Position numbers and translations under genes: made by a program
Notes under the pieces: model-generated
What the model saw: the letters and a program-made list of their open reading frames with translations, nothing else
What the model was told of the DNA's origin: nothing
Databases searched by the model: none
Part shown: positions 18,735 to 55,478 of the stretch, one piece after another
Position numbering within the stretch: position 1 is the stretch's first letter
Layout of the letters: every line of letters starts with the position of its first letter
Assembly: GCF_004803635.1 (NCBI RefSeq)
Contig: NZ_SSWX01000024.1
Span: forward strand, 3,439 to 58,916
Reading direction: 5' to 3'
From: Lampropedia aestuarii
GTDB lineage: Bacteria > Pseudomonadota > Gammaproteobacteria > Burkholderiales > Burkholderiaceae_C
Length of the DNA stretch: 55,478 nucleotides

Positions 18735-19490
18735 TTAAAAATCCTGGCGCAAGGCCTCCTGCAGCAACAAGGCACCCAGCTCGTGTTGCCGTGCTAGCGG
18801 CAAACGCTGGCTGATCGCGCCAAAGCTCAAGGCCGCCCACTGCGTTGGCGAAACCTGAAACGCACAGCCCACCCCAGAGACACCTTCCGTGATCGTGTCC
18901 ACAATGCGGCTATAGCCAGCTTGACGGGTCTCGCGCACGGCCACCATCATGTCTGCAAGGCTAAATCCCATTTGCGCATAGTTTTTGGCATGCCTTTGCA
19001 CCAGCGCAGCAATCTCCTCATCGGGCAGTGTGGCCATCAGCGCCAAGCCCCCTGCGCCTATGCCCAGCAAACGCTTTTCTCCCACATTGGTGGTGAAAAC
19101 TCGCACCGGGAAATGCCCTTCCTGGCGCTGTAAGCAAAGGCAGAAGTCGCCCTGACGGATCACAAAAAACACCGTATCGCCCGAGATGCGGGCCAGTCTT
19201 TGTAGCAACGCATCGTACTTGTCAATTAATGGCATGCGGCGCAGTCCAGCTGTGCCCAGTTGAACCGCATCAATGCCTAGGCGATACACCTTGCCTTTTT
19301 CTTGACGCTCAACAAAGCCCTCCTCGACCAAGCAAGTCAAGAGTCGGTGCACGGTGGATCGCTCCAATCCAACACGCTCAATCACTTGGACCAAAGTCAG
19401 GCCCTCTTCTTGGTTCTGGCCCAGCATGCGCAACACCATCAACGCCCTGCGCAGGCTCTGGGCACCTGAGGTTAATCCTAGTTTGTCCAT
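18735..19490 (-). CDS. IclR-family transcriptional regulator
   Basis: A 251-aa regulator with an N-terminal winged helix (about residues 10-70: SLRRALMVLRMLGQNQEEGL, then LERSTVHRLLTCLVEEGFVE) and a C-terminal IclR effector domain (about 80-245, with GDTVFFVIRQGDFCLCLQRQ and GVSGVGCAFQVSPTQW). It is divergent from the crotonase-family gene at 19580 with 89 bp between, so it most likely controls that operon. The effector is unknown; IclR proteins of such clusters often sense an aromatic or CoA-linked acid. It is similar in layout to the IclR protein at 52542 (both carry GDTVF and GAGGLALL motifs). Confidence 0.9.
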   Translation of the reverse strand: MDKLGLTSGAQSLRRALMVLRMLGQNQEEGLTLVQVIERVGLERSTVHRLLTCLVEEGFVERQEKGKVYRLGIDAVQLGTAGLRRMPLIDKYDALLQRLARISGDTVFFVIRQGDFCLCLQRQEGHFPVRVFTTNVGEKRLLGIGAGGLALMATLPDEEIAALVQRHAKNYAQMGFSLADMMVAVRETRQAGYSRIVDTITEGVSGVGCAFQVSPTQWAALSFGAISQRLPLARQHELGALLLQEALRQDF

Positions 19491-19579
19491 ATAGTGGGAG
19501 AAATGATTGTTTTATGTTTTTTTTTGGGATTTTGAATCATAAACTGCATTCTAACCACCCAGGTAATTCAGGAGACACC

Positions 19580-20380
19580 ATGGAATTGAGCTACATCACC
19601 ACCAAAGACTCAGGAGCAGTACGAACCATTGCCTTGGCTCGAGCTGCACAGCGCAATGCACAAAGCCAGCAAATGCTCGATGAGCTGATGCTTGCCTTCG
19701 ATGCTGCCAAAGCAGACGAGCGTGTGCGCGTTGTGATTCTCGCGGGCGAAGGCGCGCACTTCTCAGCAGGCCATGATTTGAAGCAAGCCCAAGCTGAGCG
19801 CGCCAATTTCACCGTAGAAGAGCGCTGGGCATATGAAGAGCTGCGCTACTTTGATTACTCCATGCGTATTTGGGATTTCCCAAAACCCACGATTGCACAG
19901 GTGCAAGGCGCTTGCGTCGCTGGCGGCTTCATGCTGGCCAATATGTGCGATTTGGTGGTGGCCAGCGAGTCGGCCTATTTCTCCGATCCGGTCGGCCACA
20001 CCTTGGGTGCAGCCGCCACCGAGGTGCTGATTCACCCCTGGGTAATGGGCGCGCGCAAAGCCAAAGAGTTTTTGTTTACCGGCGCCAAGCTCAGTGCCCA
20101 GGACGCCCACGCGATTGGCATGGTCAACCAAGTGACGACCGATGCAGATCTGGCCGAGGCCACGATGGCGCTCGCACAGCAAATTGCCAAAGCGCCGCCA
20201 TTTGGCTTGCGCTTGGTCAAAAAATCCATCAACCGCACACTGGACGCGCAAGGACTGCGCAATGCCCTGTCAGCGCACTTTGACACCCACCAGCTCTCCC
20301 ACCTCAGCGCAGACTTTCTGAGCATGCGTGACAAAGGCTTGGCCAGTGCGATTCAAAAAAACCCAGAAAAGGCTGCATGA
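19580..20380 (+). CDS. Crotonase-fold enoyl-CoA hydratase/isomerase family protein
   Basis: A 266-aa crotonase-superfamily enzyme acting on an acyl-CoA. The oxyanion-hole motif FSAGHDLK (61-68) and the second loop VAGGFML (113-119) are present. The two Glu residues used by classical enoyl-CoA hydratases are absent: alignment by eye puts Met118 and Val138 there. Hydration is therefore doubtful; hydrolase, isomerase or decarboxylase chemistry is possible. The start is the ATG at 19580 with AGGAGA upstream; an open extension to 19229 overlaps the IclR gene and is rejected. The stop overlaps the next start in ATGA, so it is coupled to the ADP-forming acyl-CoA synthetase. Confidence 0.85.
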   Translation: MELSYITTKDSGAVRTIALARAAQRNAQSQQMLDELMLAFDAAKADERVRVVILAGEGAHFSAGHDLKQAQAERANFTVEERWAYEELRYFDYSMRIWDFPKPTIAQVQGACVAGGFMLANMCDLVVASESAYFSDPVGHTLGAAATEVLIHPWVMGARKAKEFLFTGAKLSAQDAHAIGMVNQVTTDADLAEATMALAQQIAKAPPFGLRLVKKSINRTLDAQGLRNALSAHFDTHQLSHLSADFLSMRDKGLASAIQKNPEKAA

Positions 20381-22530
20381 TGCTCGCTCCTGTCAAAACC
20401 GCACAACACCGCCTGAGCCCCCTGCTCAACCCGCAATCAATTGCCATCATTGGCGCCAGCAATAACGGTGCGCGCATTGGGGGCATGCCCTTGGCGCACT
20501 TGACCAAGTTTGGCTACCAAGGCCAGATCTATCCTATCAACCCCAAATACGAAGAAGTATTTGGTCTGCGCTGCTGGCCTTCAATAGAGGACTTACCTGC
20601 CGCCCCAGATTTGGTGGTGCTGGCCATCGGCGCTGCCGATGTGCTGCCCATGCTCAAACGCTGCGCAGCCAAAGGGACCAAAGCCGTGATCGTGTATGCC
20701 GCTGGCTTTGCAGAAGAAGGCGAGCAAGGCGCCCAGCTGCAGCGCGAGCTGGAGGCTTATGTGGCCACTACCGATTTGGTAGTGGCTGGCCCCAATGCGA
20801 TGGGCTTTGCCAATCTCAACACCCAGGCCCACACCAATTTTGCTTCGGTATTCAATACCGCCCCGATGCAACAAGGCCAAGGCAGTGTCAGTCTGCTCAC
20901 ACAAAGTGGCAACGTCTGCGCAGCGGTATATGCCATTGCGCGTAGACTGGGCGTGAGCTTTAGCCACTTCATCAACACGGGCAACGAGGCCTGTGTCGAT
21001 TTTTCTCAGTATCTGGAGTACCTGGCGCAAGACGAGGCCACCGAAGTGGTCATGGGCTACATCGAAGAGCTGCGCGATGGCCCGCGTTTTATCGCGGCAG
21101 CCCAAGCATTTGCAGAGCGCGACAAGCTGCTGGTGCTCTACAAAGCCGGCGAAACAGACAAGGGCTCAGAGGCCGTGCGCTCGCACACCTCGGCACTGGC
21201 TGGCGACAAGGCGATCTACCAAGCCGCCTTCAAGCAACTGAACATCATTCAAAGCAATGATTTTGTGCAAATGGCCGAGCTGGCCAACCTGGCCCGCTAC
21301 CGCCACCTCAGCGCCGGCAAGCGCGTGGCCATCATCACCATCAGCGGCGCCTTGGGTGCGATTTTGGCCGACAAATTCATTGGCCAGGGCTTGGAAGTGC
21401 CAACCCTGCCAGAGGACTTGCAAGCCACGCTGCGCACAGGCATTCCTGACTATGGCATGGTTTCCAACCCTGTGGATGTGACAGGCAACGTGGTCAATGA
21501 CCCAGGCTTTATGCGCACCGCTCTGGAGGCACTGGCGCAGTCAAGTGCAGTCGACAGCATCGTGATCTACGCCCCTGGCTACATGCTGGACCGCATGGCC
21601 AATGACTTGGCCGAAGTCTCGGCCCAATACACCAAGCTGTTTATCGCCATAGATACCGGTGCAGCCCAATCACGCGAACAATTGCGCGCCAGCGGCGTGC
21701 CGGTGTTTTCTGACATTGGCGTGGCTGTTAATGCTGTGTCGCCATTCTTGCTCTGGCAAGAGCGCCGCAAACACAATACGTGGCGCCAAGCGGCCAAGCC
21801 CGCTGTATCTGAGTGCGCCCAACTGCCCGCACAACTCAATGAATACGACACCAAGAAGCTGTTGGCACAATTTCAGCTGCCGATGTGCGATGAGCGCTGT
21901 GCCAGCAACGCCGATGAAGCCGTCGCCATCGCTGACGCCATTGGCTACCCAGTGGCGCTGAAAATTCTCTCCGCCGACATTGCCCACAAAACCGAGGCAG
22001 GCGGTATCAAGCTGAATTTGCACAATGCACAGCAAGTAGCACAAGCCTTTGCCGATGTGATGCGCAATGCCAAGGCCTACGCCCCCAATGCACAGATCGA
22101 TGGGGCTTTGGTCTGCACCATGGAATCTGGCATTGCCGAGTTGATCGTTGGCGCATCGCGTGATCCGGTGTTTGGCATGACTTTGACTGTCGGGCTGGGC
22201 GGCGTATTGACCGAGATCTACAAAGACGTCAGCCACCGCTTACTGCCCGTCAATACCAGCATGGCCCGCGAGATGCTGCAAGAGCTCAAAGCCTTTGCAC
22301 TGCTTGACGGCTACCGTGGCCGCCCACGAGCCGACATCAATGCGGCCTGCCAAGCGATTGCCTCGTTCTCCAACGCCGTATTGGCTCTGCAAGAACAAGT
22401 GCAAGAGGTAGAGGTCAACCCTCTGCTGGTCAAAGAGCAAGACCAAGGAGTCCGCATGCTGGACGCTTTGATACTGCGCAATCACACCACGCACGACAAC
22501 GCGCGCGGGTGCACAACAACCATCGCCTAG
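20377..22530 (+). CDS. Acyl-CoA synthetase (NDP/ADP-forming), fused alpha-beta type
   Basis: A 717-aa cytoplasmic enzyme that activates a carboxylic acid with ATP and CoA through an acyl phosphate and phosphohistidine, giving ADP, reversibly. Domains in order: CoA-binding Rossmann (about 15-145, SIAIIGASNN), two succinyl-CoA-ligase flavodoxin-like domains (about 160-460), and ATP-grasp (about 490-705, with LKILSADIAHKTEAGGIKLN). The phosphohistidine is in RSHTSALAG (His270). Coupled by ATGA overlap to the crotonase gene and followed by the Bug protein 9 bp later. Which acid it activates is unknown; family members act on acetate, pimelate, citronellate-like or aromatic acids. Confidence 0.88.
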   Translation: MMLAPVKTAQHRLSPLLNPQSIAIIGASNNGARIGGMPLAHLTKFGYQGQIYPINPKYEEVFGLRCWPSIEDLPAAPDLVVLAIGAADVLPMLKRCAAKGTKAVIVYAAGFAEEGEQGAQLQRELEAYVATTDLVVAGPNAMGFANLNTQAHTNFASVFNTAPMQQGQGSVSLLTQSGNVCAAVYAIARRLGVSFSHFINTGNEACVDFSQYLEYLAQDEATEVVMGYIEELRDGPRFIAAAQAFAERDKLLVLYKAGETDKGSEAVRSHTSALAGDKAIYQAAFKQLNIIQSNDFVQMAELANLARYRHLSAGKRVAIITISGALGAILADKFIGQGLEVPTLPEDLQATLRTGIPDYGMVSNPVDVTGNVVNDPGFMRTALEALAQSSAVDSIVIYAPGYMLDRMANDLAEVSAQYTKLFIAIDTGAAQSREQLRASGVPVFSDIGVAVNAVSPFLLWQERRKHNTWRQAAKPAVSECAQLPAQLNEYDTKKLLAQFQLPMCDERCASNADEAVAIADAIGYPVALKILSADIAHKTEAGGIKLNLHNAQQVAQAFADVMRNAKAYAPNAQIDGALVCTMESGIAELIVGASRDPVFGMTLTVGLGGVLTEIYKDVSHRLLPVNTSMAREMLQELKAFALLDGYRGRPRADINAACQAIASFSNAVLALQEQVQEVEVNPLLVKEQDQGVRMLDALILRNHTTHDNARGCTTTIA

Positions 22531-25937: not shown

Positions 25938-27071
25938 TTAAAAAGCGTGCCGAATCCCTGTTGCAAAACTCGTTTGACCTTTGCCTGGCATTGGCAGACC
26001 GCCCGCAGAGCCTGCATCCACCGAGATATTCAATAAGCCACTGTTTTTCGTGTGGCCGACCAAAGCAAACAAGGTCGTTCTTTTAGACAGATGGTAACCA
26101 ACACGCGCAATCGCGGTGGTGGCCTTGTCGCCAGTGGGTGAGTTTTTATACTGCAAATGTCCAACCTGGGCATCCACTACCCACTGTGGGGTAAAGGGAT
26201 AGCTGACGCCCAAAAAGTACAGGTTGCTTTTAGGTTGGATCTGATTGCCATCGTTATCTCGATTCACCACCCCACCGGCAACTTTTATGGCCCCCATTTT
26301 GTAATACCCGTTTAAGGTGATACGTGTGTCTTTTAAGCTGGATGAATTCAAGCCATTCTGAGCACCGGCACCCCCATAGATTTGATCAGCGGCAACAGCC
26401 ACACCCCACGCAGGACTATCGTATTTACCAAGCAGCGACCAGGCGCGACAAGATTTTGAATCGCCCTCTATTTTCCCTGGACAACCAGTGGCCGCTGGAT
26501 GGCCTGGAATATTGAGCGTATCGCGGCCAAAGCTGTATGTTGCGCCCAGCGTGAAATTATTGAATTTACCTTGATAACCAACGCCATTGTCGATGCGCGC
26601 ATTGCCCAAATAATGGTCCAGGGAGCCAAAGCCCATCACGGCTGGGCCCATCACGTCAGAGCCTAGCAAAGAGAAAAACAGCATCGACCACTGCCGTCCA
26701 AACGTCACCGTGCCCCACTCTTTGGATGACAAGCCCACATAGGCCAAACGACCAAAACCCCTGCCGCCTTGCTGCAGCGCGCCGGTAGTCAGAGCAATCC
26801 CTTGCTCTAAATTGAACACCGTGCTCAGTCCACCGCCCAAATCCTCCGAGCCACGCACGCCAAGCCGCGATGGCATATAGCCGCCTGTCACCGAGCTCAT
26901 GCGCGTGAGTGAGTGGCCGGTTGGGCCGACATTGTTCACATACGTCAAGGCCACATCGAGTACACCATATAGTTGCACCGAGCTTGGCGATGTCTGGGCC
27001 ACAGCACCGGTGCCCAATAACAAGGGCACAGAGGCTAATGCAAGCGTGCGCATATTCTTCAAAACTGCCAT
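25938..27071 (-). CDS. Gram-negative porin (Burkholderiales type, Omp32-like)
   Basis: A 377-aa outer membrane barrel protein. Signal peptide residues 1-26 (cleavage after GAVAQ), then SVQLYGVLDVALTYVNN, the first barrel strand of this porin family, and a C-terminal Phe (GIRHAF), the outer membrane insertion signal. GRLAYVGLSSKEWGTVTFGR is the conserved early strand/loop 3 region. An AGGAG site precedes the ATG. It is the last gene of the Liv-type transport series and probably admits the anionic substrate through the outer membrane. Confidence 0.92.
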   Translation of the reverse strand: MAVLKNMRTLALASVPLLLGTGAVAQTSPSSVQLYGVLDVALTYVNNVGPTGHSLTRMSSVTGGYMPSRLGVRGSEDLGGGLSTVFNLEQGIALTTGALQQGGRGFGRLAYVGLSSKEWGTVTFGRQWSMLFFSLLGSDVMGPAVMGFGSLDHYLGNARIDNGVGYQGKFNNFTLGATYSFGRDTLNIPGHPAATGCPGKIEGDSKSCRAWSLLGKYDSPAWGVAVAADQIYGGAGAQNGLNSSSLKDTRITLNGYYKMGAIKVAGGVVNRDNDGNQIQPKSNLYFLGVSYPFTPQWVVDAQVGHLQYKNSPTGDKATTAIARVGYHLSKRTTLFALVGHTKNSGLLNISVDAGSAGGLPMPGKGQTSFATGIRHAF

Positions 27072-28315: not shown

Positions 28316-28338
28316 GTTTGTCTCCTTGAATAATGGTT

Positions 28339-30965: not shown

Positions 30966-30979
30966 GGCGGTCTTTCTAT

Positions 30980-42658: not shown

Positions 42659-42717
42659 GTTGTTTCGTCTCCGTTGTTCTCAATTTCATGCAGACAGTGA
42701 TCCAGCGCGCGCCAGGC

Positions 42718-44686: not shown

Positions 44687-45481
44687 ATGGATAACACTTG
44701 GAACAGACGTGTGCCCACTGGGCTAGAGGAATTCGCTGGCGACAAACAGTTCGCCACCACACTGGCGCGCGGGCTGGAGCTGCTGCATTGCTTTACGCCA
44801 GAACGCCCTGTTCTGGGCAACAGCGAGATGGCCAAAATGCTCAACCTGCCCAAAGCCACGGTGTCGCGGCTGAGCTATACGCTGTTGTGTCTGGGCTACC
44901 TCACGGCCACTGAGTACTACGGCAAATACCAACTGGGTGCTGCCACCTTGTCGATGGGTTACCCGTTACTGGCGCAATTCACGATCCGCCGCAGCGCCAG
45001 GCCATTGATGCTCAAAATGGCCAAGTCACTCAACTGCAATGTCTCGATTGGGGTGCGCGACCGTTTCTCGATGGTCTATATCGAGGTGATTCGCACCGGC
45101 GGCGGCATTGTCTACGCCCATGACGTGGGCAGCACCCACCCTTTGCTGGGAACCTCGATCGGCCGGGCCTACCTGCTGGGCTGCACCCCGGCCGTGCGCG
45201 AATCATTGATCAATCAGATCAAGATCAAGGAACCCGGCCAGTGGCGCCAATACGGCAAGAAAACGCAGGAGAACTTGCAGGACTATCCGCAATACGGCTG
45301 CTGCACGGCCGTCGGCGAAATTGTGCCTGACGTACAGGCCGTGGCCGTACCACTGGGGCGCATTGACCGCGTTGATGTGGCCGCCATAAGCTGCACCTTC
45401 CAGGGCCGCAGCCTGAATGTCGATTGGCTGCGCCGCGAGGTTGCGCCGCAACTGCAAGCCCTGGCAAGACAGATTACCTAA
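44687..45481 (+). CDS. IclR-family transcriptional regulator
   Basis: A 264-aa IclR protein: winged helix about 25-85 (FATTLARGLELLHCFTPERP, then LPKATVSRLSYTLLCLGYL) and effector domain about 95-260 (NCNVSIGVRDRFSMVYIEVI, then the VGSTHPLLGTSIGRAYLLG loop). It differs in its effector loop from the other two IclR proteins, closer to the group regulating beta-ketoadipate or aromatic genes with a TVTLP-like loop. Divergent from the ligase-thiolase-crotonase genes, which are its probable targets. Confidence 0.88.
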   Translation: MDNTWNRRVPTGLEEFAGDKQFATTLARGLELLHCFTPERPVLGNSEMAKMLNLPKATVSRLSYTLLCLGYLTATEYYGKYQLGAATLSMGYPLLAQFTIRRSARPLMLKMAKSLNCNVSIGVRDRFSMVYIEVIRTGGGIVYAHDVGSTHPLLGTSIGRAYLLGCTPAVRESLINQIKIKEPGQWRQYGKKTQENLQDYPQYGCCTAVGEIVPDVQAVAVPLGRIDRVDVAAISCTFQGRSLNVDWLRREVAPQLQALARQIT

Positions 45482-45686: not shown

Positions 45687-47264
45687 TTAATCAACCACCG
45701 GCTCAGATTTGGGGATGCCGTCAGCAAACAGCTTGCGCAGGGCTTTTTTATCGACTTTGCCAAGGCCGGTTACCGGCAGCTCGCGCACATACACGACCTG
45801 CTTGGGCGTGCTTATCGGGCCTTTGGCGTCACGCACCATGCGTTGTAGCTGGGCCGGATCGGCCATCGTGCCACTGCGCGTCACCACCACGGCCAGTACC
45901 GCTTCGCCCCATTTGTCGTCGGGCACACCAATCACGGCCGCCTGGCTTACATTGGGGTGCGTGCACAACACATCCTCCACCTCGCGTGCGTAGACATTGA
46001 AGCCGCCAGAGATCACCATGTCCTTCTTGCGATCAACGATGAAGAAATAGCCTTGTGCGTCCTGCATGCCCATATCGCCGGTATGCAACCAGCCGCCAGC
46101 CAACGCCTGTGCTGTTTGCGCGTCCTGGCCCCAGTAGCCGCTCATCACCAACGGTCCACGCAGGCACAGCTCACCAATCTCGCCGACAGCAACGGGCTTG
46201 TTGTGTGGATCGAGCAAAGCCACATCCAAGCCGGGAAACGGCCGTCCAGCAGAGGCCAGCCTGCGCGCGTCAGCGCTTTCGTGGTCGTGCTGATCGAGCA
46301 GCAAAATCGTGTTGGGCGCCTCGCTTTGCCCAAAGGTCTGCACCAGCACTGGACCAAAACAATCGAGTGCCTGGCGAATGCGCGCAGGACTGGCAGGTGC
46401 CGCTCCATAGACCAGCGCCTGCAAACTGCTCAAATCAGCCAGTGCCGTACGCGGATCATCCAGCAAGGCATACAGCATGGTGGGCACAATGAAGGTGAAT
46501 CCAATGCGCTCGCGCTGCACGGTATCCAGCCAGCGGCCTACTTCAAATCCGCGCTCTAGCACCACTGTGCCGCCACGTGCGAAAGTGGGATAGACCAGCG
46601 AACCGGCGCCATGCGAGATCGGTGCGGAGCACAAAGTGCGCACGCCATCAGGCCAGGCCAGCGCAGACAGCCACAACTGCGTGTTGTGCAGCATAGCCCG
46701 GTTGCTCAGCATAACGCCTTTGGAGCGGCCGGTGGTGCCACCGGTGTAGGCCAAACGAACAATGCTCTCGGAGCCACCACGCTGCTGCAATGCAGGCCCA
46801 GAAAAAACGTCTGCGTGGTGCCAGAAGCCCCCTTCAGCATCGCTGTGTAGCAAACATTGCCGCAACTGCGGACAGCGCGAGAGCTCTGTCCCCAACCGCG
46901 ACACATATACAGACTCACCTATGAGTACACGGGCTTGGCAATCCTGCAATGTCAGCACATGGTCTTGCACACTGCCCATGGGATGCAGGGTGACGGAGCA
47001 AAAGCCGCGAATATACGCTGCAGCCATCACAGCCAGCATTTCAATGCGGTTGCCAGACAGTTGCGCGACGACATCGCCTTGCTGCAGGCCCAGACTTTCG
47101 AGCTTATTGGCCGCCTGGGTGACCAGCGCCAACAATTCGCGGTAGCTGAGCGCACGCGACTCATCAATGACTGCAATGCGCTCAGGGTGGCGCTGCAATG
47201 CCTGCAGCAGCCAGGCCCCTAAAGTGCCGCCTTGGTGCACGGTGCTATGCGTGGACTCGATCAT
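45687..47264 (-). CDS. AMP-forming acyl-CoA ligase (canonical P-loop)
   Basis: A 525-aa adenylate-forming CoA ligase. P-loop LAYTGGTTGRSKGVMLSN (GGTTG variant seen in several ligases), A5 TFGQSEAPN, A7 GWLHTGDMG, A8 FFIVDRKKDMVISGGFNVYA and A10 lysine in PVTGLGKVDKKAL. The group includes medium-chain, aromatic and cinnamate-type ligases. Its start overlaps the stop of the SCPx-type thiolase in ATGA. It is the last gene of a tightly coupled four-gene unit. Confidence 0.88.
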   Translation of the reverse strand: MIESTHSTVHQGGTLGAWLLQALQRHPERIAVIDESRALSYRELLALVTQAANKLESLGLQQGDVVAQLSGNRIEMLAVMAAAYIRGFCSVTLHPMGSVQDHVLTLQDCQARVLIGESVYVSRLGTELSRCPQLRQCLLHSDAEGGFWHHADVFSGPALQQRGGSESIVRLAYTGGTTGRSKGVMLSNRAMLHNTQLWLSALAWPDGVRTLCSAPISHGAGSLVYPTFARGGTVVLERGFEVGRWLDTVQRERIGFTFIVPTMLYALLDDPRTALADLSSLQALVYGAAPASPARIRQALDCFGPVLVQTFGQSEAPNTILLLDQHDHESADARRLASAGRPFPGLDVALLDPHNKPVAVGEIGELCLRGPLVMSGYWGQDAQTAQALAGGWLHTGDMGMQDAQGYFFIVDRKKDMVISGGFNVYAREVEDVLCTHPNVSQAAVIGVPDDKWGEAVLAVVVTRSGTMADPAQLQRMVRDAKGPISTPKQVVYVRELPVTGLGKVDKKALRKLFADGIPKSEPVVD

Positions 47265-48502
47265 GCACGCTCCAAAATCGTCACGGCCGCCACCGCTTCT
47301 TCACCTGCATAAAAGCCACCGCCGTTCTCAGCCGCAGCGATGCGGGCCCCGGCAACCTGTCTGCCTCCGGCTTCACCGCGCAGCTGCGTCACCAGCTCCA
47401 GAATTTGAATCGCACCGGTGGCAGCAATCGGGTGTCCTTTGGAGACCAGCCCCCCTGAGGGGTTGACTGGCATGCGCCCACCGACGCGGGTTTCACCGCG
47501 CTCGGCCATCGCGCCACCTGCGCCAATTTCGCACAGGCCCAGATTTTCGATATGGCGAATTTCGGCAAAAGACGACGCATCATGGACCTCTGCCACATCC
47601 ACATCGTCTGGTGAGACCCCGGCCTGCTCATACGCCTTGAGCGCAGCAAGGCGACCAATGTGGCGGGAAAAATCTGCCGGATCACGCACCACACCAGAGG
47701 CCAGTTGCGTGGCAAGTACGCGCACCGCACGGGTTTTGTCAAAGCGTTTCAAAGCCGCCTGCGAACACAGAATCAATGCGCCTGCGCCATCGCTCATCGG
47801 CGCGCACATGGCGCGCGTCAATGGCCAGCTGACCAGACGGTCGGCCAGCACTTCTTCGACTGAGCAAGGGTGCTGGTATTGCGCCATCGGGTTGTGCTGT
47901 GCATGGCTGTGGTTTTTGGAGGCAACGATCGCCAGCTGTCGCTGCGTGGTGCCGTGCAGCATCATGTGGTGACGCGCCATCGCGGCGTAACTGTCCATGA
48001 AAACGCTGCGCTCACCAGCATCGAGATTGGCCTCAGGCGGCAGCGGCAAAGCCGCTGAAAGAGCTGCCTGCGCGGCCAATTGCGTCTCGGCCAGCTCGCG
48101 GTCCATGCCGCCCCAAAAGGCTTCAAACATCAAATCACGCCGCTCTGGCAGATGCATTTTCTCGGCCCCGACCACCAGTGCCACCTCGCAGACACCAGCC
48201 TTGATCGCCGCCCAAGCCTGGTTCAGACCGGTTGAGGAGCTGGCGCAAGCGTTGTCGCAGTTGATAATGGGTATGGCTTCAAAACCCATCGCGCGCAGCG
48301 CACACTGGCCACGAATGCCGTGCTGGCCTTGCAGCACACCCTGGCGCGTATTGGAAAACCATGCCGACTCGATGGCCTGCATGCCGCAACCGGCATCTTG
48401 CAAGGCCGCTTGCACGGCCTGGCGCGTCAAGTCTTTGACGCTGCGTGAGAGATGACGACCCAGCGGGGTCATGCCCACGCCGACGATATATACACTGCTC
48501 AT
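47261..48502 (-). CDS. SCPx-type thiolase (copy 2)
   Basis: A 413-aa thiolase of the SCP-x group. Cys86 in DNACASSSTG, His in AEVHDASSFAE, and SGGLVSKGHPIAATG near the end. It is clearly different from the copy at 41417 (less than half of visible residues match by eye), so the two probably act on different chain lengths or steps. Stop and start overlaps (ATGA) couple it to the ligase below and the thioesterase above. No DUF35 or MaoC-like partner is nearby. Confidence 0.88.
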   Translation of the reverse strand: MSSVYIVGVGMTPLGRHLSRSVKDLTRQAVQAALQDAGCGMQAIESAWFSNTRQGVLQGQHGIRGQCALRAMGFEAIPIINCDNACASSSTGLNQAWAAIKAGVCEVALVVGAEKMHLPERRDLMFEAFWGGMDRELAETQLAAQAALSAALPLPPEANLDAGERSVFMDSYAAMARHHMMLHGTTQRQLAIVASKNHSHAQHNPMAQYQHPCSVEEVLADRLVSWPLTRAMCAPMSDGAGALILCSQAALKRFDKTRAVRVLATQLASGVVRDPADFSRHIGRLAALKAYEQAGVSPDDVDVAEVHDASSFAEIRHIENLGLCEIGAGGAMAERGETRVGGRMPVNPSGGLVSKGHPIAATGAIQILELVTQLRGEAGGRQVAGARIAAAENGGGFYAGEEAVAAVTILERA

Positions 48503-48960
48503 GACACCCCATTTATTTCAAATCGTCCACCACGATTGAGCGCAATTTTCTTGAAAGCGCCCTGACCTATGGCAATGCTGTTGTCGGCTTGATCCAACAC
48601 CTCGGCACTGCAAAACACCATCGATTTGCCACCGTTAACCACCCACCCCCGCACCCTGACGGGCCCGCGCATGGCATTGATGAACTGCACGTTTTGGTTC
48701 ACCGTGACAATTGGACCGGGGTTGGCAGGCCAGGCATAGGCCGCGTAGCCCATGACCACGTCAAGCAAAGTGCACAAGACGCCGCCATGAGCCACGCCAA
48801 TGCCGTTGGCATGCACTGCCGCATCAAAGTCGAGCTCGATGCTGGCCTGGCCATCAGCCACCACCAAATTGCGCATGCCCACGGTTTGTAAAAACGGCGG
48901 CAGCGGCCCGCTTAGGCCGGGCAATGCCGCACTGTCCGGCACGCTATGCGAGGCGCTCAT
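48499..48960 (-). CDS. PaaI-family hotdog thioesterase
   Basis: A 153-aa single hotdog-fold protein related to PaaI: ANGIGVAHGGVLCTLLDVVMGYAA contains the HGG motif and the catalytic Asp position. TVNQNVQFINAMRGPVRVRG forms the beta-sheet. Such enzymes hydrolyse non-productive or dead-end acyl-CoAs and free trapped CoA. Overlaps the ligase stop (ATGA) and the thiolase start (ATGA). A role as a proofreading thioesterase of this pathway is inferred. Confidence 0.87.
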   Translation of the reverse strand: MSASHSVPDSAALPGLSGPLPPFLQTVGMRNLVVADGQASIELDFDAAVHANGIGVAHGGVLCTLLDVVMGYAAYAWPANPGPIVTVNQNVQFINAMRGPVRVRGWVVNGGKSMVFCSAEVLDQADNSIAIGQGAFKKIALNRGGRFEINGVS

Positions 48961-50681
48961 GCCGCCACCTCGGCATTCAATATTTCACGCAGGTCGCGGC
49001 GCAAAATCTTGCCAACCGCACTGCGTGGCAATGCGTGCACCACCTCCAAGCGTTCGGGCATTTTGAAGACCGCAACCTTTTTCTCGTCGCGCAAGAATGC
49101 GCTCAACTGCGCCAGGCTCAGGGACTCCACGCCGTCGCGCAACACCACAAAGGCGCACACGCGCTCGCCCAAGGCAGCATCAGGAAAGCCCACCACCGCT
49201 GCATCGGCAATAGCTGGATGGGCCAGCAACAAACTGTCGATTTCTTCGGCCGACAAATTCATCCCGCCGCGAATAATCACGTCTTTCAAGCGCCCTACAT
49301 AGCGGTAATAGGCGTCGCCCTCGCCAACGATTTCAAACAAATCGCCTGAGCGGTAATAGCCTTGCGCATCAAAGGCACGCTGCGTCAGCGCAGGATCGCC
49401 GATATAGCCAGAGAACACGGTAGGGCCGCTAAAGCGCAGCTCGCCTACGCGCCCTGGCTGGGTAATTTCCTCTTCATTGGCTGGATCGACCAAGCGCGTG
49501 CTCACGCTGTCCATGCCATCGCCACGCCATTGCAAACCCGCTACCCCAGTGCGTGGAAAGCAGGTCGCACGCAGCGTCGGATCGGGCACATCCAACTCCG
49601 AGCCGGCCAATGAGCCGCCTTCATTGGAGCCATAAAAATTCAAAATACTAACGCCCCAACGGTCTTGAAACTCCTTGACCATCCACTCCGACAAGGGGGC
49701 TGCGCCTGATCCTATGCGGCTGAGCAGCTTGAAGTCAATGCCTTGCACCAGCTCTGGCTTGTGCAGCATGGCGTTGAGAATCGCCGCCGGAGCCACCGTG
49801 TGGCTGATAGCTTCTTCACGCAACTGCTGCAAGTACACCGGCAGCTTGAACGGTTGGTGCTGCACCACGGTGCAGCCGGTCATCAACCAAGGAAAAAAAC
49901 AGGTCGCAAAGCCCGCCATATTGATCAGCGGGAAAGGGTTGAGTATGCGGTCGTGCTGGCCCACACGCGAGAGCCCTAACGACACGCGCCCCTGCGCAAA
50001 CCATTCATTGTGGGTATGCGGCACGCCCTTGGCACGCGCCTCAGTGCCCGAGGTCCAGCAAATCGTGAACACGTGGTCTGACGTGGTCTGCGCGGCCTTG
50101 CCTAACATCTGCGCTTGTGCGGTCGCATCTTGCACCTTGGCCAATAAGGCGGTCCAGTTTTCCTGATCCGTCAAAGACGGCGCGTGGCCCAATGCAAGCA
50201 CGGCATTGGCTTGCAGAAAGCCGTCCTGAACCAGCGCTCTAGCGCGCAGCACGGGCGCATCCTGCTCGGAGCCGCCGCTATAAACCATCAAGGCCTTGGC
50301 TTGCAGCAACTCCAGGATGTATTGCAGCTCATGCTCGCGGTATTGGATCGGCAGCGGGCTCACCACAATGCCTAGCCGCGCGCATGCCAGGTAGACGACA
50401 AACTGCTCCACGCAATTGGGCAGCTGCACGCACAAGACATCGCCAACGCCCAGACCACGTTGGTGCAATACGACGGTGGCACGATCAACCTCTTCAGCGA
50501 CCTGCCTAAATGTCATGCGGCGCGGCGCATCGCCTAAAAAATCGGCGCGATTGATGGCATCTACCAAAGCTTCGCGCTCGCCATTTTCTGCGAGTAATGA
50601 CTCAAACTGGCTGAACACGGTTCGCTCTCCCCACCAACCTTTGGCGCGCATGTCCTGCGCTCTTTGCTGGTCTACTTGCAT
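48957..50681 (-). CDS. AMP-forming acyl-CoA ligase with variant P-loop (copy 2)
   Basis: A 574-aa adenylate-forming CoA ligase, paralogue of the ligase at 42718. The P-loop reads ICWTSGTEARAKGVPHTHNE (207-226), again with TEARA. Shared motifs: KGWWG at the start, VVSPLPIQYREHELQYI, LNFYGSNEGGSLAGSEL, YYRSGDLFEIVGEGDAYYRY and the A10 lysine in PRSAVGKILRR. It heads the unit ligase-thioesterase-thiolase-ligase and lies 45 bp after the aldehyde dehydrogenase. Confidence 0.88.
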   Translation of the reverse strand: MQVDQQRAQDMRAKGWWGERTVFSQFESLLAENGEREALVDAINRADFLGDAPRRMTFRQVAEEVDRATVVLHQRGLGVGDVLCVQLPNCVEQFVVYLACARLGIVVSPLPIQYREHELQYILELLQAKALMVYSGGSEQDAPVLRARALVQDGFLQANAVLALGHAPSLTDQENWTALLAKVQDATAQAQMLGKAAQTTSDHVFTICWTSGTEARAKGVPHTHNEWFAQGRVSLGLSRVGQHDRILNPFPLINMAGFATCFFPWLMTGCTVVQHQPFKLPVYLQQLREEAISHTVAPAAILNAMLHKPELVQGIDFKLLSRIGSGAAPLSEWMVKEFQDRWGVSILNFYGSNEGGSLAGSELDVPDPTLRATCFPRTGVAGLQWRGDGMDSVSTRLVDPANEEEITQPGRVGELRFSGPTVFSGYIGDPALTQRAFDAQGYYRSGDLFEIVGEGDAYYRYVGRLKDVIIRGGMNLSAEEIDSLLLAHPAIADAAVVGFPDAALGERVCAFVVLRDGVESLSLAQLSAFLRDEKKVAVFKMPERLEVVHALPRSAVGKILRRDLREILNAEVAA

Positions 50682-50726: not shown

Positions 50727-52409
50727 TCACTGGCGCTTTGGGCGGCGTGACTGCACGATGCGAAAACGGCTGGCGACAAAGCTGTGGTCAGTCAGCGATG
50801 CATTGCCCGCTGCATTCAAGCCCGTGACGTGGTAGTCGCTGTAAGCCGCCGCAAAATTGAGCGGCATGGGCCCGGTCAAATTGATCGTGAGCTGCGCACC
50901 AGCCTGTGCATAAGCCTGCTCGGCACGGGCTATGAAAGCCTCATCCTGTGCATAGACAAAGGCCGTCAAGCCACCATGCTGGGCCACATCGCTACAGGCC
51001 TGGGCCAGTGCGTCATCGGCATCTGCCACAGCAATCACAAACGAGATCGGGCCAAAGCGCTCTTGGCGGTACAGCTCGCCCTGGCTGGGATCGGCCACGA
51101 TGATCAAAGGCGTGGCCGTGCGCGCTTTGGGAAACTCTGGATGCACATAGGCGGCGCTGTCTCTGGCTATTGCGCCCTGCTGGCGCATCGCGGCGATGCT
51201 CGCCAGCGTGTCATCGGACTGGATCGCAGCCAGAATCATTGCTGCGCGCTGCGGACTACCGGCAAGCGCGTCCACGGCCTTGACCAGCGCTTGCACAACC
51301 TCGTCAAAAGGCACTTGCCTGGCCGACTCGCCAAGGCCTGCGCGGATGCCGTTTTTAGGCACATAAAAGTTTTGCGGGCTGGTGCACATTTGCGCCGAAT
51401 ACATGCACATGGTGGTGGCCAGACTGCGGATCATGGCCTCAAAATCATCGCAGGAATGCAGCACCACGGTATTGCAGCCGGCCGTTTCTGTGTAGACCAG
51501 CGCTGGATGGGCATTTTGCTCAATCCAGGCACCAAAACCGACGCTGCCTGTGAAATCCACAATCGCCGCTTGCGGATGCTTGACGATCTGCTTGCCAATC
51601 GGCTGCTCGCGGCTATCGAGTGCCAAAGTAACCAGGTTTGGATCAAAGCCGGCTTCTTTGAGCACTGTGCGAAAGAGGCGAATCACGATCGCCATTGGCA
51701 ATACCGTGGCGGGATGTGCTTTGACAATCACAGCATTGCCGGTGGCCAGACTGGCCATCATTGAGGGCAGAGCATTCCAGGTCGGGAAACTGGCGCAGGT
51801 AAAACACACCGCGACCCCTCGCGGCACCAAACGGTAGGTTTTCTCCAGTTCAATCGTGGTGCGGCCAAACTGGCGCTGCCACTGGGCATGGCGGGGCACA
51901 GCCCCCATCGCGCTCCAAGCATACGCCAGCGCTTCAATGCCGCGATCAAGTGCATTGACGCCGGAGCCAGCGTAGCTCATATTAAAGCTTTGGCCGGTGG
52001 TGTGAAACACTGCATACACCAGCTCAAACAGCTGCTGGTATTGGCGCTGCACAACCTCCAGCAAGACACCGATGCGTTGCTCCGGATCGGCCTGCGCCCA
52101 GCCCGCTTGCATGGCGCCAGTGGCAGCCTCAAACAAACTGTCCAGATCAGACTGCGGATAACTCACCCCCAGTTGCTGGCGGGTGTAGGGCGAGGTTTCC
52201 TCACCAATCCACGCTGTGATTCCCGGCTGGTCAATCTCAAAACGCTGCCCCAGCTGGCGCTCAAACGCCAAGCGGCCTGCAGTTTGCGCATTGGCGCTGT
52301 CTGGATAGGCATCTGCAGCTTCAGGGAATGGGCTCCAAAAATGGCGCTCTTGACAGGCTTGCCAGGCTCTTTCCAGAGTGGCACGATGGGTCTCAAACAT
52401 CTGTTTCAT
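50727..52409 (-). CDS. PaaN-like aldehyde dehydrogenase
   Basis: A 560-aa aldehyde dehydrogenase-superfamily protein of the single-domain PaaN type found in Burkholderiales (start ETHRATLERAWQACQERHFW and SPFPEA). Catalytic Cys342 is in SAQMCTSPQNF, the general-base Glu308 in VYTETAGCN, and the cofactor Lys230 in VIVKAHP. There is no MaoC hydratase domain, unlike E. coli PaaZ. It converts an aldehyde to the acid with NAD(P). No other phenylacetate (paa) ring-opening gene is in the window, so here it may oxidise the aldehyde made by the carotenoid/stilbene-type oxygenases. AAGGAAG precedes the start. Confidence 0.82.
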   Translation of the reverse strand: MKQMFETHRATLERAWQACQERHFWSPFPEAADAYPDSANAQTAGRLAFERQLGQRFEIDQPGITAWIGEETSPYTRQQLGVSYPQSDLDSLFEAATGAMQAGWAQADPEQRIGVLLEVVQRQYQQLFELVYAVFHTTGQSFNMSYAGSGVNALDRGIEALAYAWSAMGAVPRHAQWQRQFGRTTIELEKTYRLVPRGVAVCFTCASFPTWNALPSMMASLATGNAVIVKAHPATVLPMAIVIRLFRTVLKEAGFDPNLVTLALDSREQPIGKQIVKHPQAAIVDFTGSVGFGAWIEQNAHPALVYTETAGCNTVVLHSCDDFEAMIRSLATTMCMYSAQMCTSPQNFYVPKNGIRAGLGESARQVPFDEVVQALVKAVDALAGSPQRAAMILAAIQSDDTLASIAAMRQQGAIARDSAAYVHPEFPKARTATPLIIVADPSQGELYRQERFGPISFVIAVADADDALAQACSDVAQHGGLTAFVYAQDEAFIARAEQAYAQAGAQLTINLTGPMPLNFAAAYSDYHVTGLNAAGNASLTDHSFVASRFRIVQSRRPKRQ

Positions 52410-52541: not shown

Positions 52542-53351
52542 ATGGAACATCCAATGAAAAAAGCCGCATCTGCCAGTGGCACGCAAAGCGTGCACCGTGC
52601 CCTGCAAATCCTGCGCCTGGTGTCCACCCACAACCGCCAAGGCATCCGCCTGAGCGATCTGGCCGCGCAAGTGCAACTGAGCAAACCCTCAGTGCACCGC
52701 CTGCTCAGAGAACTCACCGAAACCGGCTTGCTGATGCAAGCGCACAACCGGCTCTTTCATCTTGGCCAATTTGCCTATGAATTGGGCTTGATGGCCTCGT
52801 CGCATTACAGCTTGCACCAAGTGTGCGCGCCGTTTGTCGAGCAGCTCGCGCAAGAGTCGGGCGACACCGTCTTTTTAGTCATGCGCAGCGGCTTTGACTC
52901 GTTTTGCCTCGATCGCCAAACCGGCAGCTACCCAATCAAGGTGTTCTCCATTGAAGTGGGCAACCGCCAGCCGATGGGAGTGGGCGCAGGCGGCCTTGCC
53001 TTGCTCAGTTTTCTCAGCGAAGCCGAGCGCGATGCCGTACTGGCAGAGCACAGCGAAGCGCTGCTGCAATTCAACGGTCTGTCGGTAGAGACAGTCAAGC
53101 AGCTCATTGACGCGACACGCCAGCGTGGCTATTCGCACATCTCCAACCACGCCGTTGCTGGCGTGACTGGCTTTGGCATGCCAATTCTTGACCGCGTGGG
53201 CACGCCGCTGGCCGCCATCAGCGTCACCGCCATCAATGACCGCATGACGCCCGAGCACCAGCGCCAGGTGATTCATTTACTGAATCGCTGCACCCAACAG
53301 GCCCGCGAAGCTTTGCTGACCAGCCGTGGCAGCCTGCCCTCAAGGGCCTAG
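52542..53351 (+). CDS. IclR-family transcriptional regulator
   Basis: A 269-aa IclR protein: winged helix about 14-75 (SVHRALQILRLVSTHNRQGI, LSKPSVHRLLRELTETGLLM) and effector domain about 85-260 (GDTVFLVMRSGFDSFCLDRQ, then PMGVGAGGLALLSFLSEAER and HAVAGVTGFGMPILDRVG). Closely resembles the IclR at 18735 in these motifs, so the two may share ancestry and operator type. Divergent from the PaaN-like dehydrogenase and the ligase unit, the likely targets. The start is the ATG at 52542; a second in-frame ATG five codons later is possible. Confidence 0.9.
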   Translation: MEHPMKKAASASGTQSVHRALQILRLVSTHNRQGIRLSDLAAQVQLSKPSVHRLLRELTETGLLMQAHNRLFHLGQFAYELGLMASSHYSLHQVCAPFVEQLAQESGDTVFLVMRSGFDSFCLDRQTGSYPIKVFSIEVGNRQPMGVGAGGLALLSFLSEAERDAVLAEHSEALLQFNGLSVETVKQLIDATRQRGYSHISNHAVAGVTGFGMPILDRVGTPLAAISVTAINDRMTPEHQRQVIHLLNRCTQQAREALLTSRGSLPSRA

Positions 53352-53370: not shown

Positions 53371-54297
53371 TCAGGTCTGCGCGCAGCCGCACTGCTCACA
53401 CACAAAGCTTGGCGTAAACCACTCAAGGCAGGGGCTATGCAGCACGCGCCAACCAGGGTCGTAGTGCGGCTCCAACCAGCGCTCCCCCCATGCCAGCGCG
53501 GCCACAATGACCGGGTAATAACTCAGGCCACGCAGCGTGAGGCGGTAGACATGCCGCTCGCTCGTATCACTGTCCTGCACACGCTCGAGCATCCCTTGCT
53601 GCGTTAGACGAGCCAGTCGGCCCGAGAGAATGTTTGTGGCAATTCCTAACGCCTGCTCAAATTCTGAAAAGCGGTGCACGCCCAAAAAGGCAGCACCTAA
53701 AATCAAGCCCGTCCAGCGGTCCCCCATCAATTGCTCAGCCGACAACTGCAGTTGCTGCTCTGATGAAGTCAGGTCACGCGCGCGCCGCGCCGACACCGCC
53801 ATAGCCTCTGGCGGGAAACGGTGGGTGAGCAGCAGCTTCATTGCTCGCGGCTCGGCAGGAGCCATGCACTGCCCACAGCACAGGTGCAGCGGCGCACCAT
53901 GCCCACATGAGCTGACTGCAGCCTCCTCTGCAAGCAACGCGCATCCGACATGCCAGCGCTGATTCCACTGCTGCATTTGGCGCAGCAGCATCCACAGACC
54001 ACGCCCTTGCTCGGTCAATACATACGCGGCCTCACCACTAGTGGCATTTTTTTTGCGCTCAAGACAATGCTGCTCTGCCAGCAGACGCAGCCTTGCGCTC
54101 AAGGTGCTGCGCGGTATGTCTAAGCTGTAGGCCAACACATCAAAGCGCTGCGCACCACCGAGCAGACGCCCAATCACACGCAACGTCCAGGTGTCGCCCA
54201 CCAAGTCGGTGACGCGGTGGATGATGTTGTTGCGAATCATCTGATGCTGATGGTGCACGGATGGGCTGGGAATCTCTGGGCCGGAACGCATGGGCAT
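53371..54297 (-). CDS. Tandem HxlR-type regulator with two Cys-rich ribbons (copy 2)
   Basis: A 308-aa protein from ATG 54297, with two HxlR winged helices: about 25-115 (VGDTWTLRVIGRLLGGAQRF, then IPRSTLSARLRLLAEQHCLE) and about 188-275 (MGDRWTGLILGAAFLGVHRF, then IATNILSGRLARLTQQGML). Each is followed by a Cys motif with the same spacing as in the protein at 33738: C131-x9-C141-x2-C144 and C290-x9-C300-x2-C303. A TTG at 54339 would add 14 residues and is less likely. Divergent from the second carotenoid oxygenase, which is the probable target. Confidence 0.8.
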   Translation of the reverse strand: MPMRSGPEIPSPSVHHQHQMIRNNIIHRVTDLVGDTWTLRVIGRLLGGAQRFDVLAYSLDIPRSTLSARLRLLAEQHCLERKKNATSGEAAYVLTEQGRGLWMLLRQMQQWNQRWHVGCALLAEEAAVSSCGHGAPLHLCCGQCMAPAEPRAMKLLLTHRFPPEAMAVSARRARDLTSSEQQLQLSAEQLMGDRWTGLILGAAFLGVHRFSEFEQALGIATNILSGRLARLTQQGMLERVQDSDTSERHVYRLTLRGLSYYPVIVAALAWGERWLEPHYDPGWRVLHSPCLEWFTPSFVCEQCGCAQT

Positions 54298-54381
54298 ATT
54301 GTCTCTGGTGTTCGGGCAAGGGCGTACTTTTACAAGCAAACTTTCGCACCGTGGAACAAACGTGATTTTCTTCTCTATATT

Positions 54382-54474
54382 ACTTGCATATCGATACTTT
54401 GAATGCGTACTATAAAGGCCTTGAATACGTGCAAGCCAACTGAGCTCTCAGCGAAAATTTTTCAATGTGCAAGT
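54382..54474. promoter_or_regulatory. Repeated half-sites between HxlR and oxygenase genes
   Basis: Three copies of one heptamer in a 332-bp gene-free spacer (54298-54629): ACTTGCA at 54382-54388, and on the opposite strand GTGCAAG at 54429-54435 and TGCAAGT at 54468-54474. The outer pair forms an inverted repeat (TTACTTGCATAT against TTATACTTGCACAT). They are good candidates for HxlR binding. The rest of the spacer shows no other feature apart from AT-rich promoter-like stretches such as TACTATAAA at about 54409. Confidence 0.45.
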
Positions 54475-54629
54475 ATAAAAGAGCAGCCTATGACAAGCAC
54501 ACCCTATTCCTGATTTCTGACAATGCCCTGCAATATTTTGCTTGCAGAGCTGGACTTATTGGCGTTGTACCTACGGCCAATATCTGCTAACCCAACAACT
54601 ACGCTTGCCTCAGCGACAAGGAGACCCTC

Positions 54630-55478
54630 ATGAGTTTGGACACCCTCATCCCGCCAGCGCCATATATGGTGCACAACCCCAATTTGCTGGGCGGCTTTGC
54701 GCCGGTGGACAAAGAATTGATAGTGACCGAATTTGAAGTCATCGGCACCATTCCTGCGGATTTGAACGGCATGTATGTGCGCAATGGCCCAGTGCCTCAG
54801 TACACGCCCGAGGGCAAATACCACTGGTACGACGGCGACGGCATGCTGCAGGCGTTTTACTTCAGAAATGGCCAGGTCGAGTTCCGCAACCGCTGGGTGC
54901 GCACCGATGCCTGGCATGCAGAGCAGGCAGCCGGAAAAGGCCTGTACAGCGGCTTGAAGCAGCGCATGCCCGAGGGCGTCCTGCCCGATGATGCAATGAA
55001 GAACACATCGAACACCGACGTCAAATTCCACAACGGCAAGCTGTTATCCATGTGGTATAGAGGCGGCACGGTCTACCAAAACGATCCCTATACGCTGGAG
55101 ACCCTGGGCAAGCTCGAACCCGATCCACGTTTAGTGGGCCTGCAAATATCGGCGCACTCGCGCGCTGACGAGCGCACTGGCGAATACATGTTCTTTGCCT
55201 ACGGCAATCGCCACCCGTATATGCACTACGGCGTAGTTGGCGCCGATGGCGCGCTCAAGACCCTGCTGCCAGTCGAGCTGCCTGGCCCGCGCTTGCCGCA
55301 CGATATGGCGATCACCGAGCACTACTCGATCCTGCACGACTTCCCATTGGTCAACAATCCAGAAGCACTGCAGGCGGGTCGCTACAGCCTGGACTTTCAT
55401 GCGGAATGGCCCAGCCGCTTTGCCATCATCCCACGCCACGGCACAGTCGATCAGATCCGCTGGTTTGAAGCCAGCCCA
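54630..55478 (+). CDS. Carotenoid/stilbene-cleavage oxygenase family protein, N-terminal part (cut by window edge)
   Basis: The first 283 codons of a second propeller non-haem iron oxygenase. NLNGMYVRNGPVP-like start and WYDGDGMLQAFYF match the family. Two of the four iron-binding His are present: H176 (QISAHSRAD) and H224 (LPHDMAITEHYSI); the other two would lie beyond the window. It shares PYMHYGVV and LPGPRLPHDMA with the protein at 37878 but differs much elsewhere, so it is a distant paralogue. AAGGAGA lies 5 nt before the ATG. The divergent tandem HxlR gene is its likely regulator. Confidence 0.9.
   Translation, partial: MSLDTLIPPAPYMVHNPNLLGGFAPVDKELIVTEFEVIGTIPADLNGMYVRNGPVPQYTPEGKYHWYDGDGMLQAFYFRNGQVEFRNRWVRTDAWHAEQAAGKGLYSGLKQRMPEGVLPDDAMKNTSNTDVKFHNGKLLSMWYRGGTVYQNDPYTLETLGKLEPDPRLVGLQISAHSRADERTGEYMFFAYGNRHPYMHYGVVGADGALKTLLPVELPGPRLPHDMAITEHYSILHDFPLVNNPEALQAGRYSLDFHAEWPSRFAIIPRHGTVDQIRWFEASP

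Follow-up and report, generated by a model that had tools for sequence, protein, structure and literature searches.

A conserved gene cluster in Lampropedia aestuarii joins an uncharacterised clade of carotenoid-oxygenase-family proteins to genes of CoA-ester breakdown

We analyzed a 55,478-nucleotide stretch of Lampropedia aestuarii DNA (hereafter, the window; contig positions 3439-58916, the contig, C17, stopping at the window end), which encodes two proteins of the RPE65/carotenoid oxygenase family (PF03055), denoted CCO1 and CCO2, among genes of coenzyme A (CoA) ester metabolism. Judging by their sequences, these oxygenases belong to a single uncharacterised clade apart from the lignostilbene dioxygenases (LSDs), and the gene cluster that surrounds them is real, conserved and, as far as we searched, undescribed. 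Tentatively, and with somewhat less than even confidence, we read window positions 27149-44502, together with the PaaN-like aldehyde dehydrogenase (ALDH), the second HxlR regulator and CCO2 at the right edge, as a laterally spread cluster that would degrade an unsaturated, methyl-branched isoprenoid-type acid, ester or aldehyde.

The oxygenase clade and its active site

CCO1 (37878 to 39353 or 39365, minus strand) and CCO2 (~54630-55478, plus strand, cut by the contig end) match PF03055 with 409 and 236 bits, respectively, against a cut-off of 27. In LSD4, the second-sphere residues Glu-135, Glu-353 and Glu-418 are described as hydrogen-bonding three of the four iron-binding histidines, and these seven residues are called remarkably conserved in the carotenoid cleavage dioxygenases (CCDs) characterised to date (PMC8191317). 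The clade enzymes carry Gln, Arg, Leu or Met at the Glu-135 position, which is directly preceded by an insertion of one residue. Among the 109 rows of our alignment, 75 lack Glu at this position (55 Gln, 14 Arg, 4 Met and 2 Leu) and 32 have it, the remaining two (L130 and L054) showing a Glu one column off and being counted by hand as Glu-bearing. Neither CCO1 nor CCO2 has an acid here under either gap placement, and both thus depart from the canonical three-acid arrangement of CCDs. The four iron-binding histidines are kept in all 73 clade rows long enough to show them, and, of the rows extending to the other two acidic positions, all except one retain the acids; CCO1 has all four histidines, and CCO2 shows the first two, the remainder lying beyond the contig end.

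The two window proteins differ at the altered position, CCO1 carrying Gln and CCO2 Arg, and such pairs recur: 21 stretches, the window included, hold at least two classifiable oxygenases of the clade, and in 19 of them a Gln type accompanies an Arg, Leu or Met type; L066 (two Gln) and L075 (Arg and Met) depart from this pattern. Many of the stretches are close kin, so that these are not 19 independent cases. Separately, Comamonadaceae bacterium G21597-S1 (L058 and L017) carries four clade oxygenases, of the Leu, Arg, Gln and Gln types, on one stretch. RPE65, a member of the same superfamily, acts as an isomerase or hydrolase rather than as a C=C-cleaving oxygenase. The clade members might likewise be isomerases or hydrolases, or the Arg/Leu/Met type an inactive partner subunit, as the loss of the second-sphere Glu and the recurrent pairing would suit; the persistence of the four histidines and of the other two acids speaks against this, and we consider it improbable. 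It is also unlikely, if slightly less so, that the clade represents a new functional class, in which a four-His/two-acid iron site, with a Gln-type catalytic protein and an Arg/Leu/Met-type partner, would cleave C=C bonds in CoA thioesters. If true, such cleavage within a beta-oxidation-like pathway would bypass the branches or conjugation that stop ordinary beta-oxidation. The clade further raises the question of whether an iron site thought to be invariant in its second sphere can work minus one glutamate.

The phylogenetic tree was built from 92 rows, after 13 near-duplicate loci and two duplicate rows had been dropped along with the short rows, among them that of the window CCO2, for which its Limnohabitans ortholog (77% identical) stands in. 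All 60 clade rows kept lie on one side of a single branch (SH-like approximate likelihood ratio test (SH-aLRT) support of 99-100), also when the trait columns are left out. CCD1 and VP14 join the clade with SH-aLRT support of 98; rather than falling inside their group, the clade is sister to these two reference sequences, which sit on long branches. Chains named carotenoid 9,10-dioxygenase are the best solved relatives in phmmer searches (214 bits with CCO1; 236 bits with the CCO2 ortholog of Limnohabitans), ahead of LsdA (159 and 168 bits). Both the carotenoid 9,10-dioxygenase 9m6z, which we take to be plant CCD1, and VP14, a 9-cis-epoxycarotenoid dioxygenase (NCED; 3npe), share the four-His iron site and join the clade in the tree, but keep acids at all three second-sphere positions, whereas in the window clade one of these positions carries Gln, Arg, Leu or Met and follows the insertion.

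LSDs (LsdA, 6ojr; LSD4) and the isoeugenol and other aromatic dioxygenases are catabolic enzymes of the same superfamily, and the top NCBIfam model is LigStilDioxAlpha, at 223.5 bits far below its cut-off of 800. A lignostilbene, hydroxystilbene or isoeugenol-type pathway nevertheless appears very improbable. Tyr-101 and Lys-134 of LSD4 bind the 4-hydroxyl (PMC8191317), and the counterparts Y136 and K169 are reported to be essential in an isoeugenol-cleaving dioxygenase (PMC12308385). This pair is present in LsdA and five control rows and in none of the 75 clade rows (Tyr alone occurs in one), and the six LSD-type rows form a clade of their own (SH-aLRT 100) apart from the 60-row clade. Moreover, in the family-wide sample described below, the five LSD-type control stretches (L144, L147, L154, L155 and L156) lack any match to SCPx, HxlR or the FadA-type thiolase; L147 does have AMP-forming CoA ligases (AMP-ligases), ALDH and short-chain dehydrogenases/reductases (SDRs), and L144 has ALDH. 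On the residues and the tree, we reject the lignostilbene pathway. A preliminary description of this DNA had proposed a stilbenoid, phenylpropanoid or isoprenoid acid as the substrate: the missing Tyr/Lys pair and the tree disfavor a stilbenoid or phenolic compound, and the isoprenoid acid is the alternative we tentatively favor.

Conserved neighbours of the oxygenase genes

The genes near clade oxygenases were compared with those near other PF03055 proteins. Searching with PF03055, we obtained matches in 59 of the 397 other Pseudomonadota genomes. For the 29 of these 59 with the top scores, the best match per genome was classed by the Glu-135 position alone, yielding 9 clade genes and 20 Glu-bearing controls, with ~9 kb on each side (the control stretch L141 is short, and L135 is off-centre, extending about 7 kb one way and 12 kb the other). 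The P values come from one-sided Fisher tests, uncorrected for the number of families, and because 8 of the 20 controls represent one genus, by-genus figures are given as well. SCPx genes, with the SCPx1 type as the commonest companion, were found near 7/9 clade genes and 0/20 controls (p = 2.3e-5; by genus, 7/9 vs 0/12, p = 3.1e-4), HxlR genes near 6/9 vs 0/20 (p = 1.8e-4), FadA-type thiolases near 5/9 vs 0/20 (p = 1.1e-3), AMP-ligases near 6/9 vs 2/20 (p = 3.9e-3), nitronate-monooxygenase (NMO)-like flavoproteins near 5/9 vs 1/20 (p = 5.5e-3) and DUF1295 proteins near 3/9 vs 0/20 (p = 0.023; by genus, 0.063). There was no difference for ALDH (2/9 vs 2/20), alpha/beta hydrolase (1/9 vs 0/20), IclR (1/9 vs 0/20), Bug (1/9 vs 1/20) or SDR (0/9 vs 1/20), and crotonase, acyl-CoA dehydrogenase, Liv and lipocalin gave no match near any of the 9 clade or 20 control genes; a lipocalin of L132 detected by Pfam had escaped tblastn. 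Six families, when retested, showed the same counts at three E-value cut-offs; the queries come from this cluster type, and distant homologs near controls may be missed. The general core comprises the oxygenase, SCPx and HxlR, often with a thiolase, an AMP-ligase and an NMO-like protein, and Liv, PaaN and lipocalin belong to the version found in Comamonadaceae and Pararhodobacter. In one clade stretch (L132:4154-8022), a tannase/feruloyl-esterase-family protein and a TonB receptor lie near the oxygenase, a hint of an ester substrate.

Scanning genome contigs with CCO1 yielded 38 loci at 61-85% identity, in which gene calls are six-frame open reading frames with codon-usage scoring trained on the window, and are less dependable where GC content is low. 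The genes of Limnohabitans sp. 2KL-1 run CCO1, CCO2, lipocalin-like, PaaN, NMO-like, SCPx1, DUF1295, thiolase, HxlR, LivHMGF, FadD11 and LivK; Pararhodobacter marinus has this order minus DUF1295, other Pararhodobacter-type loci agree with it over the stretches seen, and related orders, several of them including extra oxygenases, are found in Rhodoferax- and Comamonas-type loci. The core that recurs in Comamonadaceae and Pararhodobacter-type genomes consists of the oxygenase, SCPx and FadA-type thiolases, the tandem HxlR regulator, the FabK/NMO-like flavoprotein and the Liv system. Counting companions from eight families in the fetched stretches, 21 of the 38 loci have at least three, 13 have one or two and four have none at the cut-off applied; in the latter (L019-L022), the downstream end of the contig falls at or inside the oxygenase genes, and on two of these contigs a distant thiolase (35-37%) lies upstream. 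One of these four, L021, with a CCO1 at 77% in a Limnohabitans-like CCO1-CCO2 pair, comes from a record titled Singulisphaera sp. (Planctomycetota) and is probably a mis-binned contig. FadD11 was matched at 60-79% identity in 9/9 cluster genomes searched, the lipocalin-like gene occurs in 10/38 loci and some others, and, at the cut-off used, the window SDR was found in 2/38 loci and the crotonase in 0/38. In the Pararhodobacter-type L027 and L031 (1-9500), a second related module, with a Met-type oxygenase, NMO-like protein, AMP-ligase and SCPx, lies just upstream, that of L031 also including, by Pfam, an alpha/beta hydrolase and a TRAP transporter.

In four Pararhodobacter-type genomes, CCO1 (74-76% identity) and FadD11 (63-69%) are more similar to their L. 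aestuarii counterparts than is GyrA (51-52%), which points to lateral transfer of the cluster. CCO1 was matched in 0/9 same-genus genomes searched, two of which are only 77-80% complete, and in 8/59 relatives (own genome excluded), exceeding 40% identity only in G014 and G024. Related modules also reside on plasmids of Cupriavidus necator NH9, C. basilensis and Sphingopyxis granuli, encompassing an HxlR-like regulator, an NMO-like protein, an AMP-ligase, a thiolase, an SDR, an ALDH, an alpha/beta hydrolase, an oxygenase (42-48%) and transporters. C. necator C39 p1 has the order IclR, oxygenase, AMP-ligase, oxygenase, SCPx1, crotonase, SDR, with identities to the window of 64% for the AMP-ligase (42718-44502), 74% for SCPx1 and 43% for the crotonase, and on a Polaromonas plasmid, for which annotation is incomplete, an oxygenase accompanies alpha/beta hydrolases and Bug proteins. 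Among 368 other genomes of the same class, 10 matched, three of them, from one genus, at 738 bits or more; in all three genomes of that genus we find a minimal unit in which a tandem HxlR gene is divergent from the oxygenase gene, followed by an SCPx thiolase gene.

These data bear out the claim of the preliminary description that the oxygenases are tied to CoA-ester genes, through both the 21 loci with at least three companions and the SCPx association. Of the co-occurrences it proposed to look for, that of the oxygenase with SCPx recurs; the PaaN-like ALDH is present in 9/38 loci, and ALDH genes are unlinked to the clade in the family-wide sample. The gene inventory it gave was reproduced by the hidden Markov model (HMM) search by which we named the gene classes of the window proteins: two oxygenases; five CoA ligases, one related to ADP-forming ligases (20377-22530) and four AMP-forming; three IclR regulators; two HxlR regulators, each with two HxlR stretches; and the uptake genes, that is, a porin, a Bug (TctC) protein and an LivKHMGF set. 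The same search gave two acyl-CoA dehydrogenases, two crotonases and three thiolases (one FadA-type and two SCPx-type), and added to the earlier list the FabK/NMO-like flavoprotein, the DUF1295 membrane protein, an SDR and a hotdog thioesterase. Family matches are mostly clear, and because few of the proteins pass the curated NCBIfam equivalog cut-offs, exact functions are not assigned. What does not hold is that these 37 kb form one joint set: the region is a composite, not a single unit.

The segment 18735-25835, which encodes an IclR regulator, a crotonase, the ADP-forming-type CoA ligase, a Bug protein and two acyl-CoA dehydrogenases, recurs in the relatives G012 and G027 with the same gene order and with identities of 57-82%, and CCO1 had no match in either genome. 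This segment is a module separate from the oxygenase system, and with its order conserved in other genomes, we reject a single 37-kb pathway. The genes at 45687-50681 (minus strand), namely, an AMP-ligase, SCPx2 (47261-48502), the hotdog thioesterase (48499-48960) and another AMP-ligase, are only loosely associated and lie outside the conserved core: SCPx2 was found in 1/9 oxygenase-cluster genomes, two genes away from CCO1 there, and the hotdog gene in 0/38 CCO1 loci. Both segments would be in line with the notion that unrelated catabolic operons simply lie side by side, the oxygenase being functionally unlinked to the CoA genes. For the core, this notion is largely refuted by a linkage that recurs across distant taxa and relative to the controls, and overall we regard it as quite improbable.

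A candidate pathway for an isoprenoid-type acid

The enzymes of the core were compared with known families through motifs and family cut-offs. SCPx1 (41417-42658, minus strand; PRK06289, 566 bits, cut-off 375) has the motifs CASS, HDCF and GHPV and is predicted to be an SCP2-type thiolase; HDCF is given as the SCP2-thiolase motif in PMC12329534, where the steroid side-chain aldolase Sal has YDCY. SCPx1 accordingly shares CASS, HDCF and GHP with SCP2-thiolases and differs from Sal-type aldolases. In SCPx2, which adjoins the hotdog protein, HDAS stands where HDCF is expected, and this protein may not be an ordinary thiolase. The FadA-type 3-oxoacyl-CoA thiolase (34695-35903, minus strand) scores 329 bits with TIGR01930 (cut-off 240.55) and 476 bits with PRK08242, under the cut-off of 514, with the motifs CASG, NESF and GHAM. 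The FMN protein at 36843-37811 (minus strand) does not reach the FabK cut-off (TIGR03151, 105 vs 453.1 bits) and is predicted to be of the nitronate monooxygenase family (PF03060, 91.1 bits vs a gathering score of 28), its best PDB relatives being FMN enoyl-ACP reductases. The adjacent DUF1295 membrane protein (35900 to ~36805, minus strand, the start being approximate, from codon scoring; PF06966, 158.8 bits) has a weaker match to the steroid-5-alpha-reductase family (PF02544, 30 bits). The ALDH (50727-52409, minus strand) passes the NCBIfam PaaN_2 cut-off (TIGR02288, 630.4 vs 578.75 bits), which relates it to PaaN of the phenylacetate pathway; here it sits with oxygenases, no phenylacetate epoxidase being among the listed matches of the scanned window proteins.

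From the gene content, conservation, clade membership, residues and motifs that we observed, we infer a substrate, an order of steps and a set of activities. The Liv ABC system would import the acid, the porin or Bug protein helping, and AMP-ligases would form the CoA thioester. Conjugated double bonds could then be reduced or moved by the FabK/NMO-like flavoprotein and the DUF1295 protein, with a remaining C=C bond cut with O2 to carbonyl products by the putatively Fe(II)-dependent CCO1/CCO2. The resulting aldehyde would be oxidised by the PaaN-like ALDH and re-activated to CoA, and a crotonase and an SDR, from the cluster or elsewhere in the genome, would make the 3-oxoacyl-CoA, from which the FadA-type thiolase might release acetyl-CoA and the SCPx thiolase propionyl-CoA. 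Expression would be controlled by the tandem-HxlR and IclR proteins. SCPx thiolases suit alpha-methyl-branched acyl-CoA. With its FadA- and SCPx-type thiolases, its reductases of both flavin and membrane type, its oxygenases and an ALDH, such an enzyme set could shorten a methyl-branched polyene acid step by step, splitting off acetyl-CoA and propionyl-CoA. We also count the lipocalin-like gene of some loci in favor of this reading. An apocarotenoid or norisoprenoid, possibly plant- or algae-derived, may be the substrate.

Several observations weigh against this reading. Liv transporters usually carry small polar acids, no gene for carotenoid uptake is evident, and no lipocalin was matched in the L. 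aestuarii genome, in a search that had no positive control. ALDH, Liv, SDR, crotonase, acyl-CoA dehydrogenase and Bug steps lie outside the general core because these families are unlinked in the family-wide sample; two of the nine clade members there (L134 and L139) lack any companion, and Phenylobacterium-type loci retain only a distant DUF1295 and at most one AMP-ligase. With respect to the oxygenases themselves, the sister relation to CCD1/VP14 is provisional because the branches of those references are long, the NCED chain VP14 scores below LsdA for CCO1 (144 vs 159 bits), and an Asp or Glu occurs within five residues after the lost Glu in 58/75 rows (in CCO1, though not in CCO2), a neighbouring acid that might replace it. 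Finally, PaaN_2 and, near some versions of the cluster, a CoA transferase and a tannase/feruloyl-esterase-family protein also fit aromatic acids.

This last point leads to a competing possibility, in which the cluster would degrade a non-phenolic aromatic alkene or phenylpropanoid acid (for example, cinnamate or an O-methylated propenylbenzene), the oxygenase cutting the side chain and the thiolases completing beta-oxidation to aroyl-CoA. AMP-ligases and Bug, porin and Liv uptake suit aromatic acids as PaaN_2 does, and a Rieske oxygenase, in addition to the esterase-family protein, is found near some versions. However, the oxygenases group with two carotenoid-type enzymes and not with the aromatic type, and no aromatic ring-cleaving dioxygenase is among the listed matches of the window proteins scanned, to which the search was confined. 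We judge an aromatic substrate unlikely, while giving it some weight.

Returning to the isoprenoid-type reading, bacterial mineralisation of isoprenoid polyenes appears poorly mapped, and no gene cluster for it is among the open-literature matches listed. Nor do these matches, which leave out most subscription papers, include a description of this cluster or clade, in agreement with the earlier suggestion of an undescribed pathway. The bacterial alkene-cleaving enzymes of the superfamily described in PMC8191317, PMC12997858 and PMC12308385 act on 4-hydroxyaryl alkenes. The residue signature (no second-sphere Glu), the frequent SCPx partner and the named carriers, that is, Limnohabitans sp. 2KL-1, Pararhodobacter species and Cupriavidus plasmids, provide a testable handle on the cluster.

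Remaining genes and boundaries of the region

The other genes of the window were assigned by the HMM search, except that the HxlR regulators are PF01638 matches in two stretches each. On the minus strand, downstream of the FadA-type thiolase gene, these are the tandem HxlR regulator (33738-34694), the LivH-like (32857-33741) and LivM-like (31756-32832) permeases, the LivG-like (30980-31759) and LivF-like (30189-30965) ATPases, the FadD11-like AMP-ligase (28339-30198, start approximate), the LivK-like binding protein (27149-28315) and the porin (25938-27071). On the other side of CCO1, the same strand encodes the SDR (39570-40337) and the crotonase, of the enoyl-CoA hydratase/isomerase family (40636-41415), both outside the wider core, and, beyond SCPx1, the AMP-ligase at 42718-44502. 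Two IclR genes lie on the plus strand: the first (44687-45481) has homologs at 58-60% that adjoin oxygenases in L064 and L135, and the second (52542-53351) has a 51% homolog upstream of CCO1 in L005. The second tandem HxlR gene (53371-54339, minus strand) is divergent from CCO2.

At the right edge, the final 45 bases of contig C17 (window 55434-55478), which belong to CCO2, share 96% identity with the end of another contig, C36 (1-45), where they follow a frame that resembles, by eye, a truncated aldo/keto reductase. The rest (the C-terminal half) of CCO2 had no match in the L. aestuarii assembly, pointing to a collapsed repeat or rearrangement, and the contigs were left unjoined.

At the left side, an ssrA gene (18137-18512) lies only 222 bases from the first IclR gene. 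We rejected the idea of an island inserted at ssrA: in 2-kb windows, GC content stays between 0.53 and 0.61 and shows no jump at ssrA, integrases not having been searched for as such. The ADP-forming-type ligase of the adjoining segment was matched at a strict cut-off in 3/59 relatives (own genome excluded), and this six-gene module looks like a pathway of its own.

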